Origin: an uncultured SAR86 cluster bacterium | GTDB taxonomy: Bacteria; Pseudomonadota; Gammaproteobacteria; Magnimaribacterales; AG-339-G14 | Direction: 5' to 3' | DNA: 64,000 nucleotides | NCBI GenBank assembly: GCA_902525735.1 | Contig: CABZIF010000006.1 | Location: forward strand, 24,601-88,600 | Shown here: piece after piece, positions 45,980 to 64,000 of the stretch | How the letters are laid out: each line of letters starts with the position of its first letter | How positions within the stretch are numbered: the first letter of the stretch is position 1 | The notes under the pieces: model-generated | Databases searched by the model: none | What the model was told of the DNA's origin: nothing | What the model saw: only the letters and a program-made list of their open reading frames with translations | Translations under genes and position numbers: made by a program

Positions 45980-46662
45980 GTATCTTTGGTAAAAAAATAT
46001 CTGAAAGTGAAGTTGTTAAATATTTAAGCGAAAACCCAGACTTTTTTTTAAAGAACCCAGGTTCTTTAGAAGACTTAGACATAAAACATGAAAGCGGCGA
46101 GGCAGTGTCTTTAATTGAAAAACAAGTTGAGATAATCAAAAAGAAAAGTTTGCTTACAAATTCTAGGTTAAGTGAATTTCTGACAAATGCTGAATTTAAT
46201 CAAAAATTATTTATCAAAGTTCAAAAATTAATTTTGATAATTCTTAAAGCAAAGAACTTAGACAACCTTAGCGATCAAGTAGAGTTATTCTTTAAAAAAG
46301 AATTTGGTACAGAAAAATGCAAGTTATTTTTCTTTACCCAGGAAGAGCTTTATGACTTATCTGCGGAGAAAATAATCTCTCCAGAAATAGCTACTCCTAT
46401 TTTTTCAAAGGTATTCAAAGAAAATACAATTTATTTGGGAGGATTAAAGTCTGAACTTTCGGCATTGGTTTTTGGAAGCAAAGCAATGGTTGAAGAAGGC
46501 GCAATCTGTAAGTTTTCCTCCGATAAAATTGCAGGTACTTTAGCTTTGGGAAGTACGAAAAAAGGTAAATTCACTCAAGACAGTGAAACTTTATTCTTAG
46601 AATTTGTATTGGCTGTTTTGAGTCATCAGATTGACTTTCTTTTAGGTGAGATTGATGCATAA
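45976..46662 (+). CDS. DUF484 family protein (YigA-like)
   Basis: A 228-residue GAF-like protein of unknown function. ISESEVVKYLSENPDFFLKN is the DUF484 N-terminal signature. A helical linker and a C-terminal GAF-like domain follow (GTLALGSTKKGKFT). I start at ATG 45976, overlapping the dapF stop by 4 bp; the longer GTG start at 45799 would lie inside dapF. The dapF-DUF484-xerC order is conserved and suggests a role with XerC or cell division, as yet unknown. Confidence 0.85.
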   Translation: MSIFGKKISESEVVKYLSENPDFFLKNPGSLEDLDIKHESGEAVSLIEKQVEIIKKKSLLTNSRLSEFLTNAEFNQKLFIKVQKLILIILKAKNLDNLSDQVELFFKKEFGTEKCKLFFFTQEELYDLSAEKIISPEIATPIFSKVFKENTIYLGGLKSELSALVFGSKAMVEEGAICKFSSDKIAGTLALGSTKKGKFTQDSETLFLEFVLAVLSHQIDFLLGEIDA

Positions 46663-47536
46663 AGATATTAGAAACTTTTTAAATTACCTTAAGAATGCCA
46701 AAAACTACTCTGATCATACTATAAAAAGCTATGAAAATGACTTGCTTAAATTTGATAATTTCCTTACTGAAAAAAAATTTTCCTCTTGGTCGGATTTAAA
46801 ACAAGCGGATATCAGAAACTTCATTGGGGCCTATAGACGTCAAGGACTGAGCCCAAGAAGTGTTGCTAGGATATTATCATCATTAAGAAGTTTCTATAAG
46901 TATTTAAGCCTTGAGGGTTTAACAAAAGAAAACCCCATACTTGGTATCTCTGCGCCCAAATTGAATTCGCTTTTACCAAAAGCTTTGGATACAGATATGG
47001 TAAATAAATTGTTGCAATTCGAACCGAAAACTTGGGGCGACTACAGAGACAAAGCTATTGCTGAATTAATGTATTCTTCTGGTTTGAGGCTTTCTGAATT
47101 ATGTCAGTTGGATATGAACGATCTTTCCATTGAAGGTCAAATGTGCAGAGTCTTAGGAAAAGGGCAAAAAGAAAGAGAAGTCCCAATTGGTTCAAAAGCT
47201 ATAGAAGCTATCAAAATTTGGTTCAAACATCGTGATGCACGTGTTGAGAACAAAGAACGAGCAATATTTATTAATAACTTAGGAAAGAGGCTAAGTCAAA
47301 GGTCGGTGCAAAATGGCCTGAAAAAAATGAGTAGTAAGATGGGGTTGCCATATATTCATCCCCATATGCTGAGACATTCTTTTGCCTCTCATATTCTGGA
47401 ATCAAGTGGTGATTTAAGAGCTGTACAAGAACTTCTTGGCCATGCTAATTTATCCACTACCCAAATTTATACAAAATTAGATTTTCAGCATTTGGCTAAG
47501 GTTTATGACAAAAGCCATCCTCATGCCAAAAAATAA
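46655..47536 (+). CDS. xerC: Tyrosine recombinase XerC
   Basis: Site-specific recombinase resolving chromosome dimers at dif with XerD. The product has a SAM-like core-binding domain (YLKNAKNYSDHTIKSYENDL) and catalytic residues in YSSGLRLSEL (Arg), GKGQKEREVP (Lys), HPHMLRHSFASH (His, Arg), GHANLSTTQIYTKL (His, Tyr). I start at ATG 46655 because AGGTGAG lies just upstream; an in-frame GTG at 46646 is the alternative. The chromosomal position makes it housekeeping, not a phage integrase. Confidence 0.94.
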   Translation: MHKDIRNFLNYLKNAKNYSDHTIKSYENDLLKFDNFLTEKKFSSWSDLKQADIRNFIGAYRRQGLSPRSVARILSSLRSFYKYLSLEGLTKENPILGISAPKLNSLLPKALDTDMVNKLLQFEPKTWGDYRDKAIAELMYSSGLRLSELCQLDMNDLSIEGQMCRVLGKGQKEREVPIGSKAIEAIKIWFKHRDARVENKERAIFINNLGKRLSQRSVQNGLKKMSSKMGLPYIHPHMLRHSFASHILESSGDLRAVQELLGHANLSTTQIYTKLDFQHLAKVYDKSHPHAKK

Positions 47537-47537
47537 T

Positions 47538-48236
47538 ATGACTATTAAAGCAGTTACTTTTGATCTAGATGACACCTTATGGCCTCTCTATGACGTCATT
47601 ATGAATTCTCACAAACTTTCAAATGATTGGTTGATCGAAAGACATCCCCAAATGGATGGAATCCTTTTTAGTAAAAAAGAAAGAGAAATGTGGCAAACGC
47701 TTATTAAAGCTGAGCCCTCCTTAGCAAATAGATTGTCTGAGTTAAGAAAAAAAGTAATTGAGACATTGTTGCTGGAAAATGGTGTTGAAAGTTCAGCTGC
47801 TTTGAAAGATTCTGAAGAGGCTTTTGAAATTTTTTTAAATGAGCGCCACAAGGTAACTTATTTTGATCATGTTCTAGAAGTTTTAAAAAAACTTAAAGAG
47901 ACTTACCAGCTGGGAGTTTTAACTAACGGTAATGCAAATATCAAAACTTTAGGTATTGATCATCTGTTTGATTTTTATTTGAATGCAGAAATGGTCAATG
48001 ACAGCAAGCCTGGTGCAAAAATGTTTGAAGAAGCTATGTCGATCACAAAACTCAAAGCGAATGAAATTTGTCATGTGGGTGATCATCCCGTAAATGATAT
48101 CGAAGGAGCACTTAATGTTGGGTTCAAAGCAATATGGCTTAATGCCTTGGAGAACTCTTGGCCCGATGGACAGGAATGCCATGTCCCAGAGGTTAAAAAT
48201 TGGAAAGACTTAGAATCTACAATCGCTGCTTTTTAA
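47538..48236 (+). CDS. yigB: HAD-family hydrolase YigB (FMN phosphatase-like)
   Basis: Haloacid-dehalogenase phosphatase. In E. coli, YigB acts on FMN; that activity is inferred here. FDLDDTLWPL (DxDxT), LTNGN, and the C-terminal HVGDHPVNDIEGALN are the HAD motifs. I choose ATG 47538, right after the xerC stop, since the two earlier ATGs (47505, 47523) lie inside xerC. The length is about 232 residues. It closes the lptM-xerC operon. Confidence 0.88.
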   Translation: MTIKAVTFDLDDTLWPLYDVIMNSHKLSNDWLIERHPQMDGILFSKKEREMWQTLIKAEPSLANRLSELRKKVIETLLLENGVESSAALKDSEEAFEIFLNERHKVTYFDHVLEVLKKLKETYQLGVLTNGNANIKTLGIDHLFDFYLNAEMVNDSKPGAKMFEEAMSITKLKANEICHVGDHPVNDIEGALNVGFKAIWLNALENSWPDGQECHVPEVKNWKDLESTIAAF

Positions 48237-48850
48237 AGCTGTGACAGATACTCGTCTAGACGATCGGTATTAGAAACAAAAATAGATTTTTTCTGACTAG
48301 CTTCAGCTTTCACTGCATCCAAATTGATAGCCTCGCCAACTTGAATGACACCAACCATAGCCATCATAGCGTGAGGCGTGCATTGATAGACATAAACTCC
48401 TTCCTCAGTAAAAGTAATGCTAATGTCTTGACTCAAGGCTCCATTCCAAGAATCTGCCCCTGCCGGAATCATCCCATCAAGAGATGCAGAATTATGAGAC
48501 ATATCTGTTGCTACGAAATTGACCGTATCGCCTTTGGAAATTTTTATCACTGCTGGTTCGAATACCATAATTCCATCCGCTCCCGAATTAAGCATTTTAA
48601 CTTCGTGCTCAGGACCCTCCGATAAGGCAATTTTATTAGAACTTACTTCAACAGGTGCACCAGTCATCGCAGCTAGAGGGTTGACTTTGTAACCAGGGCC
48701 AGCGCTTGAGATTCCGCAGCCATCGCCTTTCAGACATATTGAACCCAAAGGTTTGGTTCTTTCTTCAATTGCGGATTCACGCATATCAGAAGACATTGCA
48801 AGACTTGCAAAAAAAGTTAATAGAATCAATAGTTGTTTAAGTGAGTTCAT
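48233..48850 (-). CDS. Periplasmic pseudoazurin-like cupredoxin with unusual leader region
   Basis: Blue-copper electron carrier. The C-terminal domain has GDTVNFVATDMSHN (His119), YQCTPHAMMAMVGVIQVGE (Cys157, His160, Met165), spaced as in pseudoazurin. Before it lies an extra segment with EERTKPLGSICLKGDGC, which resembles the N-terminal leader of marine cytochrome c5 proteins rather than any cupredoxin. I start at ATG 48850 (signal peptide LLILLTFFASLAMSS), not the upstream TTG at 48877. It probably carries electrons in the periplasm. Confidence 0.8.
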   Translation of the reverse strand: MNSLKQLLILLTFFASLAMSSDMRESAIEERTKPLGSICLKGDGCGISSAGPGYKVNPLAAMTGAPVEVSSNKIALSEGPEHEVKMLNSGADGIMVFEPAVIKISKGDTVNFVATDMSHNSASLDGMIPAGADSWNGALSQDISITFTEEGVYVYQCTPHAMMAMVGVIQVGEAINLDAVKAEASQKKSIFVSNTDRLDEYLSQL

Positions 48851-50911: not shown

Positions 50912-51544
50912 TTATTGTTTTCTTTCTTTCGCTATTAAAAAATCAACTACATCAAGTAAATCCTTTGTTTCAATCTCGCGATTTCCAGAAACAGCGTATT
51001 TACCATTCACAATGAAAGTTGGGACGCCTTTTATACCGTATTTTTGACCAAAAAGATCGGCTTTTTTAACATTATTTTTCAAACCAAAGGAATTTATTAA
51101 GCCAACATACTGCTCTTCTGAAACTCCGTAGGTCTTAATAAAAGGAATAATCTCCTTATCTGAAGCGAGCATTCTTTGTTGAATATGAATGGCAGAGAAA
51201 ACACCATCAATTATCTCTGGTTTGTTTAGAGCCTCAGCAATAAAGAATAACTTTCCATGAGTTTCAACCATTTTATTCCAGATGACCGGATACCTGAAAA
51301 AATCAACTGAACTAGGTAGTTCTTTTTTCCAATCGGTCAAAGAGCCTTCTAAGGTAAAGCAATGGCCACAGCCAAACCAAAAAAATTCAATGACTTCGAC
51401 TTTAGAATTGTCTCTGGTTAAAACTGGCTGCGATAAAATCTCATAATGTCGACCAGGCTTATACTTGTCAGCTGCTTCCGAGCACTGAGCGCTTAGAAGA
51501 AAAATTAATGAAAAAGCAAAAAGTTTAGTAAAGACCTGAGACAT
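50912..51544 (-). CDS. dsbA: Periplasmic thiol:disulfide interchange protein DsbA (CGHC type)
   Basis: Primary disulfide-forming oxidase in the periplasm. The 210-residue product has a signal peptide (residues 1-25, ending AEA-A), the thioredoxin-fold active site FFWFGCGHCF (Cys59, Cys62) and the cis-proline loop GVPTFIVNG. The dipeptide is GH rather than the PH of DsbA. It overlaps the cytochrome c4 gene by 20 bp. dsbB, its re-oxidant, is 4.2 kb away. The cytochrome c4-dsbA order is common in Gammaproteobacteria. Confidence 0.92.
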   Translation of the reverse strand: MSQVFTKLFAFSLIFLLSAQCSEAADKYKPGRHYEILSQPVLTRDNSKVEVIEFFWFGCGHCFTLEGSLTDWKKELPSSVDFFRYPVIWNKMVETHGKLFFIAEALNKPEIIDGVFSAIHIQQRMLASDKEIIPFIKTYGVSEEQYVGLINSFGLKNNVKKADLFGQKYGIKGVPTFIVNGKYAVSGNREIETKDLLDVVDFLIAKERKQ

Positions 51545-52172
51545 AATTAGCCACTGCTTGAATTTCTTCTAATGTAAGTCTGGCAGCTATTCCTTGCATT
51601 GATTTTCCTTTAGTGTCGTATCCTCTGTTGCCATTTTGATAGGCAATAAGAGAAGTAACTACGTATTCAGCCTTTTGACCACCCAACATTGGATATCCAG
51701 CAGATTCTATGCCTTTTCCTTTGGCACCGTGACAACCCGTACAAGCAGGGACTCCTGAATTTATGTTTCCCGCCCTGTAAATTTTTTCTCCAAGCGCTAG
51801 ATTTTCTTTATCCGCTTGTCCAACCTTCATTTGTTGTGCTGCGTAGTAAGCCGCCATATCTCTTAGATCATCATAATCATAGGCATCCAATAATCCCATC
51901 ATCGAAGCAATCACCCTTTCGCCATCCTTTATATGTTCAAGTTGATCAAACAGATAACTTTCCCGTTGTCCTGCTAGAGTTGGCCACTGGCCAACCACAC
52001 TATTGCCATCGACTCCGTGACAACCGGCACAAACCATAACTTTTCCCTCACCAGCAATAGGATCTCCTCTAAGAGGGGCTTTGGCTACTTTGCTTACATC
52101 AGCTGCTGATGCTGCATGGAATAAGGGCGCTAGAAGTAAAATAAAAGCTGAAAAAATTAATTTTTTTATCAT
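51525..52172 (-). CDS. Diheme cytochrome c4
   Basis: Membrane-associated or periplasmic electron carrier to terminal oxidases. The product has two CXXCH heme sites (VCAGCHG and PACTGCHG), one per half, with a signal peptide (MIKKLIFSAFILLLAPLF, cleavage near AASA). The two halves are homologous, as in cytochrome c4. I start at ATG 52172; the upstream frame extends 15 residues further but lacks signal-peptide character. It overlaps dsbA by 20 bp. Confidence 0.93.
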   Translation of the reverse strand: MIKKLIFSAFILLLAPLFHAASAADVSKVAKAPLRGDPIAGEGKVMVCAGCHGVDGNSVVGQWPTLAGQRESYLFDQLEHIKDGERVIASMMGLLDAYDYDDLRDMAAYYAAQQMKVGQADKENLALGEKIYRAGNINSGVPACTGCHGAKGKGIESAGYPMLGGQKAEYVVTSLIAYQNGNRGYDTKGKSMQGIAARLTLEEIQAVANYVSGLY

Positions 52173-52244
52173 TTTTGTTCTATATTGCGGGCTATGCGAG
52201 CGTGAATTATATACCATAGCAATTGAATTTACCCTGTTTTGGAG

Positions 52245-56787: not shown

Positions 56788-57789
56788 ATGAGTAATCCTA
56801 CCTTGAGACAAATATCCATGTTGGAGCTAATTCCTCGAGCACCGAGAAAAACTTATGCCAAGAAATTAAAAGCGCAATTGAGCGATCGAGGATATGACGT
56901 AGACGAACGAACCATACAAAGAGATTTGGTTTCTTTGGAACGAGTTTTGCCATTGATATGTGACGCACGAGACAAACCGTATGGCTGGTCTTGGGCTGAA
57001 ACTGGACTTGGAATTCAAGCACCTGCGATGGATCCCATTGAAGCCCTGACTATGTCTTTGGCCCATCAATATTTAGAACCTTTAATGCCTTCGGCCAGCT
57101 TCAATAGAATCAATATTTTCTTTAAAAGAGCAAACGAAACATTAAAAGAGAGTAGTCCAAAGTTAATCAATCGTTGGCGTAATAGGGTGCGAGTCTTGCC
57201 AGAGCTTTTGAGATTTAAAAAACCCAAATTAAACAAAGATGTTGAACAAGCTCTTTATAAAGCTGCATTTGAAGGCCTGCAAATAAAGGCTTTGTACCGT
57301 AAGAGAGGAGAATCTCAATCAAGCTTGAGATTGATTCATCCCATGGGTTTGGTTATGAAAGGCAGTATTAATTACTTAATTTGCATGATGGATGAAGATC
57401 CTGATCAACCTCGTTATCTGCCACTGCATAGATTTGAAAGGGTAGAAATTTTAGATTTGCCTGTGCACGAACCTAAAAACTTTAATTTAGACGAATTCAC
57501 GCATACCAATAATTTGAGTTACGAATATTCAAAAAACCTTTATACCTTCAAAGCGCTTTTTGATTACACAGCGGCTGCACATTTGATTGAAACTCCTTTA
57601 AATAGTTCTCAGAAAACGAAACGGTTAGAAGATGGACGATTGCTAGTTTCTGCGCGCATGACTGACACTCTGCAATTTGAGCAATGGCTCATGAGTTTTG
57701 GGTCGGACGTTGAAGTTCTTGCTCCTGGCAAGTTAAGAAATAAATTTAAAATACTGGCAAAAGAGTTAATAAAAAAATATGATGATTAG
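56788..57789 (+). CDS. WYL-domain transcriptional regulator
   Basis: A 333-residue regulator of the YafY/BrxR type. An N-terminal winged helix-turn-helix (TYAKKLKAQLSDRGYDVDER, TIQRDLVSLERVLPL) is followed by a central WYL domain (KALYRKRGESQSSLRLIHPM, with YLPLHRFERVEIL) and a C-terminal WCX extension (EQWLMSFGSDVEVLAPGKL). WYL regulators of this layout often control phage-defence islands and sense a nucleic-acid or nucleotide ligand. An AGAGAG site precedes the ATG. It is 3 bp from the RmuC-like gene, so the two form an operon. Confidence 0.85.
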   Translation: MSNPTLRQISMLELIPRAPRKTYAKKLKAQLSDRGYDVDERTIQRDLVSLERVLPLICDARDKPYGWSWAETGLGIQAPAMDPIEALTMSLAHQYLEPLMPSASFNRINIFFKRANETLKESSPKLINRWRNRVRVLPELLRFKKPKLNKDVEQALYKAAFEGLQIKALYRKRGESQSSLRLIHPMGLVMKGSINYLICMMDEDPDQPRYLPLHRFERVEILDLPVHEPKNFNLDEFTHTNNLSYEYSKNLYTFKALFDYTAAAHLIETPLNSSQKTKRLEDGRLLVSARMTDTLQFEQWLMSFGSDVEVLAPGKLRNKFKILAKELIKKYDD

Positions 57790-58754: not shown

Positions 58755-60002
58755 TTGAAAGAAAAAAAGAAATTTATAGACTTATTTGCTGGTTGTGGAG
58801 GTTTATCTTTAGGATTAGAAGAAGCTGGGTTTCAGCCAGTATACGTAAACGAATTAAACAGAGATGCGTTAGAAACTTACTTATTAAATAGAGATGAAAT
58901 ATATCCTTATTTAAGAGATAACAAATTTCATTCTCGAGATATAAAAAAATGTATTAATGAAGAGTTTTTTAAAAATTTAAAATTTAACTTAGTTGCAAAG
59001 TTTGGGTCGGAAAAAATTGATCTAGTTTGTGGCGGGCCTCCTTGCCAAGGCTTCTCCAGACTAGGAATAAGAAGATCTTATTCTGTAGACAAAGAACAGC
59101 TTCCTTCAAATCTTTTATATCAAGATATGTCTTTTTTTATTCATAAAATGCAACCAAAAATTTTTTTATTTGAAAATGTAGAAGGCCTATTGACTGCAAA
59201 ATGGAACCAGTCTGGTTTGAAGGGAGAAATTTTTAAAGATGTTTTAAAAACTTTTGAAAACCTAAAGGGTTATGAAGTTAAATATAAATTGATTTACTCC
59301 AAAGACTATGGAGTTCCTCAAAATAGGCCAAGAGTATTCATTATTGGATTCAAGTCAGAAATTATAAAAAACAAAATTGAAGAAACTGATGCTGTTAAAG
59401 CTGGCTTTTTTCCTCAAGAAACAAGAGATTATCCTCACTTAAAAAACGTACTTTCTGACTTAATAGACAATAATTTTAGTTATGGACAAAAAACAGAATT
59501 TTATCCTAATAATGCCAAAACAGAATGGCAAAAAAAAATAAGAACAAAAAAAAATGGTTCTATCTTTTTAAAGAACGATGCTCTTTCAGAGCATGAATAT
59601 AGTAATCATAGCCTTAAGACTCGGGCTAAATTTAATTCATTAATTTTGAATAAAGGAGATATTTCAGAAAATTTTAAAACAAAAAAATTTGCTCAAAGAG
59701 TATTGCCAAAAAAGTGGGGCAGCAAAGGGCCTAATATAACTATTACGTCTATGCCAGATGATTTTATTCATTATGAGCAAGCTAGAGCTCCCTCTGTCAG
59801 AGAATGTGCAAGAATTCAAACTTTTCCAGATTGGTATGAATTCTCTGGGAAACGAACTACTGGAGGAATAAGAAGAGCCGGAAATCCAAAAAAAAATAAC
59901 TTTGAAAGAGAGGTTCCAAAATTCACTCAAATTGGTAATGCCGTTCCAGTAAAACTAGCTTTTGAGATTGGTAAGCACTTCCTAAAAGTTTTAGAGATCT
60001 AA
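58755..60002 (+). CDS. drmMII: DNA (cytosine-5)-methyltransferase, DISARM DrmMII-like
   Basis: Transfers methyl from SAM to cytosine C5, protecting host DNA in DISARM. The 415-residue product has motif I IDLFAGCGGLSLGLEEAGF (residues 8-26), motif IV GGPPCQGFSR with catalytic Cys97, motif VI ENVEG (140-144), motif VIII QNRPRVF (189-195), motif IX RECARIQTFP (349-358) and motif X GNAVP (394-398). All catalytic blocks are intact. The start is TTG at 58755. It overlaps drmB by 12 bp at its 3' end in convergent orientation, unlike usual DISARM operons. The recognition sequence is unknown. A stand-alone orphan methylase is the alternative. Confidence 0.85.
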   Translation: MKEKKKFIDLFAGCGGLSLGLEEAGFQPVYVNELNRDALETYLLNRDEIYPYLRDNKFHSRDIKKCINEEFFKNLKFNLVAKFGSEKIDLVCGGPPCQGFSRLGIRRSYSVDKEQLPSNLLYQDMSFFIHKMQPKIFLFENVEGLLTAKWNQSGLKGEIFKDVLKTFENLKGYEVKYKLIYSKDYGVPQNRPRVFIIGFKSEIIKNKIEETDAVKAGFFPQETRDYPHLKNVLSDLIDNNFSYGQKTEFYPNNAKTEWQKKIRTKKNGSIFLKNDALSEHEYSNHSLKTRAKFNSLILNKGDISENFKTKKFAQRVLPKKWGSKGPNITITSMPDDFIHYEQARAPSVRECARIQTFPDWYEFSGKRTTGGIRRAGNPKKNNFEREVPKFTQIGNAVPVKLAFEIGKHFLKVLEI

Positions 60003-61940
60003 AAAGTATCCTTGGGCATCTGTTTCTGAACCAATTAAAGAATTTCTATCCAAAAGAATATTTTTGGGAAAAGTGCAACAAGCTAAATCAGGAACCATTA
60101 AACAAGCATGGCATGCTGCGAGGTTCATTCCGCCAAGTCCTTGTCCATCTGATTCAGAACATATAGGATCATTCGAGCAAAATCTCGAGTTTTCAATAGC
60201 ATTTTTCAATATTCCCTCAAACAATTCTGGCTTGATCGTTCTTACTAAGCCTCCAAGAGAGCCTGAAGAATCGGCAGAAGCTGTATAAATTAAAACACCT
60301 GCCATTTCTTTTTCTTTACTAAAATAAATCCTTTCCAATAATTCCGTAATACCGTATCCACATTCCATTGCTAGCTGCGTCATGAGCGCATGAGAAAAGG
60401 AGTGAATTAATACAAATCCTGCATCTAAAGATTCTGAGTCTTTAAGTTTTTCATACAAAAAAGAGTTCTTAGCATTATTTTTCAGGTTTTTTGTTATTTC
60501 GGAAATTTTTGAATTATTATTTAGCCAATTTTTAATTTTTTCATAACCAAAGTTAATGAAGATACCTTCTCCAGTAACTTCGCTGCAAGGTAAAAAATCG
60601 ACATTTTCTCTGGCGGGATTGAATTTTTCTTCTGGAGAAATTTTTCTAATGCTTTCTGCTTGACGTTCAAAGCCTATTAGAGCTGTAGCAGTTTTAACTT
60701 TTTTTATCTGGTGGAGACTTAAAAAGTACTTTTCTAAATCTAAATTTTTATATGAATCTAAAGCTATTGAATCAGACTTAAAATCTTCGTCATCTACACT
60801 GTTTTGTATCAAAGTTTGATATTCTTTGAATAAAAAATCTCGGTCTAATTCTTCTTGCTCTATAACCTCTTGGTCATCTTCTGTAAGTCTATTTATTTCC
60901 TCAATTATTAAATTTTTTGCCTCATCAATTTCTAAATCATATGACCCATGAAGATTCCCCATATCGAGGACTATTTCTATATCGCTAATTTCTCTTTCTC
61001 CATCAATAATCTTTTGAACGATATTGATAGTCGATTCATCATCAAGTATTTCATGTCTTACGCTGTAAGGATCAGGAACATAAATAGCACTTTTATGAAT
61101 TGGCAGGTAAATTTTTGATGCTCCTCTTGGCTGAACATCTAATAGTTCTTCGCATTGTTCATTTGGTGCAGTAGGACCCAGCCAAGGTTTTTCTCCTTTG
61201 CAGGAAAATATTTTATTTCCATTTTGATCAATAATTTTTTCTCTTTCTTCAAGCTGGCTTATGCCAGTGAGTGCTTTTGATTTTCCACAAACTTTACAAG
61301 TAATTCTAAGGCTAGAAAAACCTCCTCCCTGCCCATTATCATCAAGATATAAAGAAGGGTTGCTTGGTCCATGATTTTCATCATTTAACATTGCACAATT
61401 TTCATTGCAATTCGTTGCCATTAATTCTGGCCAAGGAATGTCTTGAATGTGTCCTTTTTGACAATAGGCAATAAAACGAACTGGTTCCGTTTTTGAGCCA
61501 TGACGATTTGTACTACTTGTACTACAAGGATTGCCTTTCTTCCAGTTCGGAAGATGGTTGTTATTACACCTTCTATTTCCCGCAGGACTATGTTTCATTA
61601 ATGCATTACAATTCATACAAACTGACCATTTAGGGAAAGTCGTAACTTCAATTTTTCCAGAAATATCATGCAGCGCTTCCTGCATTTGATCGTAAGCTAC
61701 TGGGGGTTCAATGAGTTTATTTATTCTTACCGCATTCACCCCTTCGTAATTTTTTAAAACCTTATTTAAATATTCAACAAACCTAAAATTATTTACTTTT
61801 AATTTTTGAATAGTTCTTGGGTTTAACTGCCATTCATCTACTGTTAGAGTCATTCCTGGAAATTCAACGTAGTCGTAAGTTGCTCCCACTCCAAAAGTTG
61901 TAACAACCTGAGATCTTCTTAAATCGCTTTTAAATGCCAT
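59991..61940 (-). CDS. drmB: DISARM protein DrmB (DUF1998)
   Basis: DISARM core component that forms a complex with the DrmA helicase. The product is about 649 residues. It starts LRRSQVVTTFGVGATYDYVE, the family N-terminus; CMNCNALMKH is a zinc-ribbon-like pair. The DUF1998 C-terminus contains VLIHSFSHALMTQLAMECGY, IYTASADSSGSLGGLVRTIK and the cysteine-rich GGMNLAACHACLMVPDLACC. I start at ATG 61940 because it gives the conserved start; an ATG at 61961 adds 7 residues. It overlaps drmA by 11 bp with this start, consistent with a tight operon. Confidence 0.9.
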   Translation of the reverse strand: MAFKSDLRRSQVVTTFGVGATYDYVEFPGMTLTVDEWQLNPRTIQKLKVNNFRFVEYLNKVLKNYEGVNAVRINKLIEPPVAYDQMQEALHDISGKIEVTTFPKWSVCMNCNALMKHSPAGNRRCNNNHLPNWKKGNPCSTSSTNRHGSKTEPVRFIAYCQKGHIQDIPWPELMATNCNENCAMLNDENHGPSNPSLYLDDNGQGGGFSSLRITCKVCGKSKALTGISQLEEREKIIDQNGNKIFSCKGEKPWLGPTAPNEQCEELLDVQPRGASKIYLPIHKSAIYVPDPYSVRHEILDDESTINIVQKIIDGEREISDIEIVLDMGNLHGSYDLEIDEAKNLIIEEINRLTEDDQEVIEQEELDRDFLFKEYQTLIQNSVDDEDFKSDSIALDSYKNLDLEKYFLSLHQIKKVKTATALIGFERQAESIRKISPEEKFNPARENVDFLPCSEVTGEGIFINFGYEKIKNWLNNNSKISEITKNLKNNAKNSFLYEKLKDSESLDAGFVLIHSFSHALMTQLAMECGYGITELLERIYFSKEKEMAGVLIYTASADSSGSLGGLVRTIKPELFEGILKNAIENSRFCSNDPICSESDGQGLGGMNLAACHACLMVPDLACCTFPKNILLDRNSLIGSETDAQGYFLDL

Positions 61941-64000
61941 CGTTTTTATTAACCTCAACATCTAAATCAGAATTTCTCATACTTGTGGGTGCGGAGAATA
62001 CTGCTCCGTCTCCTATTATCGACGATGGATCAAACAAACGAGTATCTGCTTGTCTTCCGCCCATTTTGCCCCATTCTTCAATTTGTCCAAATCTTTTCCA
62101 TCTTTCCTGAATTTCTTCTAACTCTTTCTTAACAGAATCATATTCCTCTGGATCCGACTTTAAAACAGAATCCAAAATCCATTCTTCTGACTTCAAAAAT
62201 CGATCTTCATCTTCGTTTTGGTTAAAAGTTGGTGCATTTATATTTTTTCCAAAACTCAAAACAAGAGAAGCAAAAACAGCGGCAAGCCCTTTTTTTCTAG
62301 CACCAGATGAGAAAGGTGTGACACTTACGGTTTCAACATATTTATATATTGATTGATGATAGTTTTTAAACATTTCATAAACCGATCTATCTTTTGATTT
62401 TCCATGATTGTATATTGCTAAAACTAGACCCGGATGTCTTCTACCAACTCTCGAAGAGGCCTGAATATATTCAGCCGTTGTTTTTGGTTGTCCATGCATC
62501 AACATTAACCCAAGTCTTGGGATATCTACACCGACAGAAATCATATTAGTTGCCATCAAAATATCAATTCCCTTGGTCGGATCAGTTGGACTTCTAAAAG
62601 TTTGGGTCCATGGAACATTAAGAAGATCCAAAATTGACTCAATCTCATCCTGACTTCTTCTGCCAGTTAATTCTCTTATTTTCTTGATTTTTCTAGAAAA
62701 TCTTACTAATTTTCCGTCTGTTATAGATCCAAATTTTCCTTTATTTATTGTCTTAGCATTCCGTCTAAGGGCAGACTCCATAGCTTGAACTTGATTGCTC
62801 ATATATGCTAACTCTCTTTTGCTATTAAAATACCAAACTAGAGTTCCATATGGATCAAAAGACATTTCTTTCTTCGTCGGTGAAGGATACAAAGTTGCTG
62901 ACACAGGTAATTCTTTAGTAAAAGGTTCAGAAAGAACGATTTCAAACTGCTTGAGTTCCTCTGTTTCAATCTCCTGATCTATTTCCTTAATATCTTCAAT
63001 TGTAAATTCTAAGACTTCTTTTCCATCGTAAAATGTGAAACTACTTCCAGGTTTTAAAGAAGACCCCGGAGATACAAATATGCTCGTATCACCTCGATTT
63101 ACTTCATTTGTTGTAATTGGCAAAAAGTCTTGGGGCGATTGTAATAGAGGTGTTGCTGCAGTTACAGACGATTCAATCATTGAGCCTTTAGCTGAACCAA
63201 AAAAACCCATATACATTCGACCTGGCTCTTCATCAATTTCTCGTTCTTTAGCAAAGAAAGAATCTTCCCAATCTATTACCTGAGGAGGAAATATATTGGA
63301 AGATCTACCTCGATATAGAGATTTCGATTGAGCATCCGAGAAAGTTAAAGTTGCTGAAGCACCAATAATCTTTGGTGTTTTTTTATCAAAGGACATCAAT
63401 TTTATTAATACATTTTCAAAAAGACCGACCATTGTGCCCAAGGGACCAGATATTAAATGTAATTCATCTTGGATAACCAGTTCAGGCGGGTCAAAGTCGT
63501 TATTTTTAATTAAATTTATCGCTTCTTCTTTCCAACTTAATTTGGCAAAGTTATCCACTGTACCTAAAAGTAAAGAAGGCTTTTCTTCAAAAATCGCTTC
63601 TTCCCAGAGATAAACAGGTAGCTTTTGATGAAAGAAACAATTTGCATCTGAACACCTAATTATCGCTTTTCCAGTTGTTCCGGGTTTGGGAATGTACCCA
63701 TAGTCTAATGGATTTGAAATTTTTGATTTACACCATGGGCACTGATGTAAAATAAATTTATAGTTTCCATTTCTATCTTTCCCAGTAGGATCTCTTCCTC
63801 TAATAATATCTAATGCTCTTTTATGAGTATTTGGACTCCCCGCAGCACCAACCCACAAACCAAGAGAAATTTCATCTTCACCAAGCTCTAAATCCAAAAT
63901 TCCTTCTTTCCTAATAAATTCTAATGCGCAAATTAAAGCTGCCGATCTTCTAAATTGATCTGATGTCAAAAGCCTTAAGGTATATCGCATAATGGCAGAA
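61930..64000 (-). CDS. drmA: DISARM helicase DrmA (5' end beyond window)
   Basis: SF2 helicase of DISARM. The frame is open to the window edge, so the N-terminal part including Walker A lies outside; the first visible ATG (63990) is probably internal. Residues counted from it: a four-cysteine CPWC..C..C finger-like segment (84-118), motif II VIQDELHLISGPLG (172-185, DELH), motif III ASATL (211-215), motif V ATNMISVGVDIPRLG (480-494) and motif VI QASSRVGRR (510-518). A long insertion (about 230-380) sits between motif III and the second RecA domain. These features match DrmA closely. It overlaps drmB. Confidence 0.9.
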   Translation of the reverse strand, partial: SAIMRYTLRLLTSDQFRRSAALICALEFIRKEGILDLELGEDEISLGLWVGAAGSPNTHKRALDIIRGRDPTGKDRNGNYKFILHQCPWCKSKISNPLDYGYIPKPGTTGKAIIRCSDANCFFHQKLPVYLWEEAIFEEKPSLLLGTVDNFAKLSWKEEAINLIKNNDFDPPELVIQDELHLISGPLGTMVGLFENVLIKLMSFDKKTPKIIGASATLTFSDAQSKSLYRGRSSNIFPPQVIDWEDSFFAKEREIDEEPGRMYMGFFGSAKGSMIESSVTAATPLLQSPQDFLPITTNEVNRGDTSIFVSPGSSLKPGSSFTFYDGKEVLEFTIEDIKEIDQEIETEELKQFEIVLSEPFTKELPVSATLYPSPTKKEMSFDPYGTLVWYFNSKRELAYMSNQVQAMESALRRNAKTINKGKFGSITDGKLVRFSRKIKKIRELTGRRSQDEIESILDLLNVPWTQTFRSPTDPTKGIDILMATNMISVGVDIPRLGLMLMHGQPKTTAEYIQASSRVGRRHPGLVLAIYNHGKSKDRSVYEMFKNYHQSIYKYVETVSVTPFSSGARKKGLAAVFASLVLSFGKNINAPTFNQNEDEDRFLKSEEWILDSVLKSDPEEYDSVKKELEEIQERWKRFGQIEEWGKMGGRQADTRLFDPSSIIGDGAVFSAPTSMRNSDLDVEVNKNDGI

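Follow-up and report, generated by a model that had tools for sequence, protein, structure and literature searches.

The exchange of copper for heme in small electron carriers is known from photosynthesis, where a copper protein, plastocyanin, and a heme protein, cytochrome c6, fill the same carrier role. Pseudoazurin and cytochrome c5 are likewise established proteins, and replacement of heme by copper at the level of whole genes is already known. Cytochrome c5 of Pseudomonas aeruginosa works with a cbb3 oxidase. PDB entries 8smr and 8snh, which we take to be the P. aeruginosa bc1-cbb3 supercomplex, contain this c5 together with a leader segment that precedes its heme domain; cytochrome c4 and the bc1 Rieske subunit are further chains of 8smr. 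A literature search with most subscription journals outside its scope returned no paper on an architecture in which such a leader is joined to a pseudoazurin, and none, within the same scope, that connects SAR86 with pseudoazurin or blue copper. The gene described here has this architecture.

The window analyzed is a stretch of 64,000 nucleotides from an uncultured SAR86 bacterium, and the gene of interest lies on its minus strand at 48233..48850 (ATG at 48850, stop codon 48233-48235 included), encoding 205 residues. A hydrophobic N-terminus with a predicted helix at residues 2-18 marks a signal peptide (residues 1-21, boundary approximate; 48788..48850, minus strand). It is followed on the same strand by a cytochrome c5-type leader (residues 22-58; 48677..48787), a variable linker of low pLDDT (residues 59-80; 48611..48676), and a pseudoazurin, or cupredoxin, domain (residues 81-205; 48236..48610). 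The 37 residues of the leader read DMRESAIEERTKPLGSICLKGDGCGISSAGPGYKVNP, and residues 29-45 of the protein, EERTKPLGSICLKGDGC, include Arg31 and the Cys39/Cys45 pair. Residues 81-205 match Pfam PF00127 (Copper-bind) at 5e-19, and the NCBI pseudoazurin equivalog TIGR02375 is matched with 141.8 bits, above its cutoff of 109.85 (E 7e-42). PDB pseudoazurins align from residue 81 on only, and residues 22-80 precede the cupredoxin domain. The protein contains no CXXCH, and a Pfam search of it gave zero cytochrome c matches. An earlier note on this DNA, made from the letters alone, had described a cupredoxin without CXXCH at these coordinates, as the reading frame and both domain models bear out. 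Residues H119, C157, H160, and M165 constitute a full His-Cys-His-Met set of type 1 copper ligands and are invariant across 32 SAR86 leader-pseudoazurins, as are R31, C39, and C45 of the leader. Counterparts in the same genus (g1) are 92-96% identical in four of seven genomes and 72-85% identical in the other three; the signal peptide is weakly conserved across the genus, and the linker has a mean identity of 66%. A second, leaderless pseudoazurin is encoded in the same genome (L036:2741-3181; G000:C1:310740-311117), and such free pseudoazurins, common in SAR86, are candidate donors of a swapped domain.

Homology of the leader was assessed with profiles in both directions. The forward profile comprised 24 c5 leaders of 27 residues each, drawn from other orders of Gammaproteobacteria with no SAR86 among them, and was run with all filters off against 2,221 open reading frames of the window and the SAR86 loci. 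It matched the window gene at E 3.6e-5, and its matches below E 10 were all c5 or pseudoazurin genes of the leader locus, with zero unrelated. The reverse profile, built from 12 SAR86 pseudoazurin leaders and zero c5 sequences, was searched against 177,635 PDB sequences; its sole match up to E 10 was the P. aeruginosa cytochrome C5 of 8smr/8snh (8smr_L; E 8.4e-6), with the alignment DDAIAKRLEPVGKVCVQGKEC. At the level of sequence profiles, homology of the window leader to the gammaproteobacterial c5 leader is confirmed. The earlier note had likened this segment to the stretch before the heme in c5 and had named dissimilarity by profile alignment, beforehand, as refuting; the profiles match both ways. 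A segment this short might be suspected of chance convergence on a motif, or the gene of being a chimeric assembly, and yet the two E values rule out chance, dozens of genome records of differing origin show the same architecture, and DNA homology is continuous through the junction. On those three grounds this explanation, to which only a negligible probability was given, is refuted.

The locus is recognizable from its neighbors, whichever carrier domain stands behind the leader (the combination is hereafter called leader-X). A gene for a yigB-type HAD phosphatase (47505..48236, plus strand) converges on leader-X, adjoins it in every SAR86 locus examined, and marks one side of the locus. Beside it lies xerC (46646-47536), and the xerC-yigB pair adjoins leader-X in all four SAR86 families. 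Two genes separate the window's leader-pseudoazurin from dsbA (50912..51544, minus strand), which is directly beside leader-X in families f3 and f4 and in a second lineage, f42, discussed below. The gene for diheme cytochrome c4 (51525..52217, minus strand) is kept near all carrier types, and dsbA-c4-engB-polA are found beside or near leader-X in families f1, f3, and f4. Farther along the window, a WYL regulator (56788-57789) precedes a DISARM-like defense set (58755-63990) that extends as far as the window's end and includes DrmA (6e-137), DrmB (6e-76), and a cytosine methyltransferase matched by the type II MTase and DrmMII models.

Across 61 SAR86 genomes, the leader is joined to pseudoazurin in 40, to a c5 heme domain in 15, and to a c552-like heme domain in three, counts to be read in the knowledge that leaders in family f4 and in genus g11 (part of f3) are degenerate and that f4 was assigned mainly by position. 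The other three genomes (G030-G032), which are incomplete (60-84%), have none of the three carriers behind a leader. In none of the 61 is the leader present on both pseudoazurin and c5. (QCMW01000001, or G038, is among the genome records that name the SAR86 order.) Leader-pseudoazurin is found in genera g1 (the window's genus), g2, g6, g8, g11, and g13, and leader-c5 in family f4, in G049 and G052 of f2, in G438-G440 of f3, and in five g3 genomes. In g9 and g10 the third head, a monoheme domain resembling c552/c554, occupies the same locus (L278:9065-9478; L292:6058-6495). Pseudoazurin and c5 alternate within each of the genera g3, g8, and g14. In g3, g4, g5, and g14 a c5 gene of its own, without a leader, comes after leader-pseudoazurin, so replacement is not always complete; in the g1 and g2 genomes, no c5 heme domain was found in addition to leader-pseudoazurin. 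This distribution bears on whether the protein is a respiratory carrier at all. It might instead store copper in the periplasm or act there as a chaperone or stress protein, given that free pseudoazurins coexist with it in many genomes and one of two copper proteins could serve a different purpose. That role is nonetheless improbable for a protein whose residues make up an intact type 1 site for electron transfer, that passes the pseudoazurin equivalog cutoff, that alternates with c5 at a single locus, and that in g1 and g2 has no c5 heme domain found alongside it.

Comparisons of close relatives place the exchange at the DNA level. In g8, the stretch from the signal peptide through the second leader cysteine is 73% identical between G049 (c5) and G046 (pseudoazurin), and beyond it the two genes are unrelated. 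In g14, G440 (leader-c5) and G441 (leader-pseudoazurin, then c5) share 83% identity over signal peptide and leader, 84% over the c5 heme domain at the protein level, and 91% downstream. What distinguishes these two is a clean cassette of ~600 bp, which lies between the leader and the heme domain and carries the pseudoazurin along with a new c5 signal peptide. A different picture emerges in g3 (L082, L086), where flanks are 77-92% identical and signal peptide plus leader only 57%, among very close relatives. In the tree, the leader-c5 domain of g3 falls outside the clade of the neighboring leaderless c5 domains of that genus (the c5 of G009, G012, G021, G024, and G036 in the tree is the leaderless one). 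Origin of the g3 leader-c5 by simple deletion is disfavored, because its c5 is not sister to the leaderless c5 and because of the low identity of the leader relative to the flanks; a search for direct repeats at the junction that could explain a deletion found a single weak 15-nt pair, in L082. Recombination with a relative that replaced the entire gene fits these two observations better and seems to be what took place in g3.

With the flanking-gene tree as frame, signal peptide plus leader are closer to those of family members with a different carrier (63-66% in g8, 35-46% in f1) than to those on the same carrier in other families. Exchange of the domain behind the leader at one locus, the swap that the earlier note had proposed, is strongly supported by the combination of two-way profile homology, a shared locus, DNA that stays alike as far as the junction, alternation within genera, and a second independent case. 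Since leader-c5 is the common state in other gammaproteobacteria, the simplest history is that pseudoazurin was inserted behind the leader, ahead of the heme domain, and that some lineages then lost c5, the directions of the events being those we infer. As a refinement of the original proposal, the exchange also appears to run the opposite way, or by cassette exchange, and the c552-like head is a third carrier in some SAR86.

The second case is that of f42, whose records are labeled AH-287-I11, AG-447-N20, MED781, and SI036_bin62. Here c5 has a membrane-anchored, cysteine-free leader and follows polA-engB-c4-dsbA. Within one genus of this lineage, the position after polA-engB-c4-dsbA holds pseudoazurin in six genomes and c5 in four, with the first 59 residues 81-85% identical across carriers. 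In the copper-domain tree, the f42 leader-pseudoazurins group with free pseudoazurins of f42 (support 100/100), apart from those of SAR86, and the branches with good support require two or more changes of leader label. Thus placed, f42, which is unrelated to SAR86, evidently made the same exchange independently. Two of its loci, L197 and L199, are labeled 'uncultured Thiothrix sp.' in GenBank, probably wrongly, as the name fits poorly with genomes of 1.0-1.1 Mb. Other groups also encode leader-pseudoazurins. In SAR92/HTCC2207/Porticoccaceae records the protein has a lipobox, and in L220 (2324-3425), L228 (2363-3426), and L241 a leaderless c5 lipoprotein is encoded downstream; the direct tandem of L220 and L228, of SAR92/HTCC2207 type, is the arrangement also seen in some SAR86. 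The architecture is present in the K189A clade too. The copper domain of the genes in these groups is the one also found in SAR86, so they may have been transferred or may go back to a common origin.

Within g1, dN/dS is 0.042 for the leader, 0.068 for pseudoazurin, and 0.165 for the linker. Purifying selection is stronger on the leader than on the linker or the copper domain, which argues that it still has a function once the domain behind it has been exchanged. Its cysteines are both present or both absent (two apparent exceptions are false motif matches), a pattern that suggests a Cys39-Cys45 disulfide. An AlphaFold model of the leader-pseudoazurin has a mean pLDDT of 61, with a largely disordered leader containing a short helix; predicted disorder is as expected of a tether, and no proof of one. 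As c5, c4, and the Rieske protein of bc1 are all present in 8smr, docking of the leader on the bc1-oxidase chain is most likely, with bc1, c4, or the oxidase as the probable partner. The genome of the window encodes a Rieske protein, c4, and a CtaD/CoxA oxidase. A cbb3 oxidase was considered as the SAR86 partner and rejected, because no CcoN above cutoff was found in SAR86, the window's genome included; the partner surface need not match that of P. aeruginosa, where the oxidase is cbb3. Alternatively, the leader could be an element of export, assembly, or membrane association, which would act in the same way on any carrier and be kept simply because the exchanges fell downstream of it. That this end of the protein handles localization is indicated by other lineages, in which a transmembrane helix or a lipobox replaces the signal peptide before the leader. 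Anchor and leader are separate, however, with the leader persisting behind all three anchor types, and leaderless c5 and free pseudoazurins in related genomes manage without such an element; this role is accordingly regarded as unlikely, if less so than that of a copper store.

The reading of the gene as the SAR86 counterpart of c5, in which pseudoazurin has replaced the heme domain, the leader is a putative docking tag, and the copper domain does c5's job, is held with reasonable confidence. The tag would become ordered only once bound, a Cys39-Cys45 disulfide closing its soluble version, and would keep this small carrier at the chain of bc1, c4, and oxidase. On its tether, the copper domain would then shuttle electrons from bc1 or c4 to an aa3-type oxidase, as c5 would. 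With recognition in the leader and the redox center on a flexible linker, the metal could change while the partners stay the same. Iron saving, a further hypothesis, would be modest at best, one heme per carrier, since diheme cytochrome c4, bc1, and the heme-copper oxidase keep theirs.

These observations suggest that the leader is a plug-in tag behind which iron and copper carriers can stand in for each other. A broader proposal, judged somewhat better than an even bet, is that the c5 leader is a general gammaproteobacterial docking plug of respiration with interchangeable heads (c5, c552-like, and pseudoazurin), abundant ocean bacteria having swapped them repeatedly and in parallel. If so, the metal of a small carrier can be changed by one domain exchange, and the binding site of the carrier is predicted to be set by the leader and not by the surface of the redox domain. 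The presence of pseudoazurin or c5 behind the leader would also provide a genetic marker that can be mapped against oceanic iron and copper.

Compared with P. aeruginosa cytochrome c5 (8smr_L), the window protein has a homologous leader with a C-x5-C pair, and its gene occupies the locus at which relatives encode leader-c5, each SAR86 genome having one leader gene; its redox domain differs, being pseudoazurin and not a class I heme domain, with no CXXCH. Relative to solved pseudoazurins (TIGR02375; PDB 3tu6 and 1bqk), the whole cupredoxin domain is alike, including the copper site and the C-terminal helices, whereas the c5 leader, the linker, and the position in the locus of c5 are additions. 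What is new is the retention of a putative recognition segment while the redox domain behind it is exchanged; this takes place at a single locus in marine bacteria that are abundant, and it has a second independent origin. In the plastocyanin/cytochrome c6 system, separate and unrelated genes are swapped, whereas in the present case a single gene changes its redox domain with leader and locus retained.
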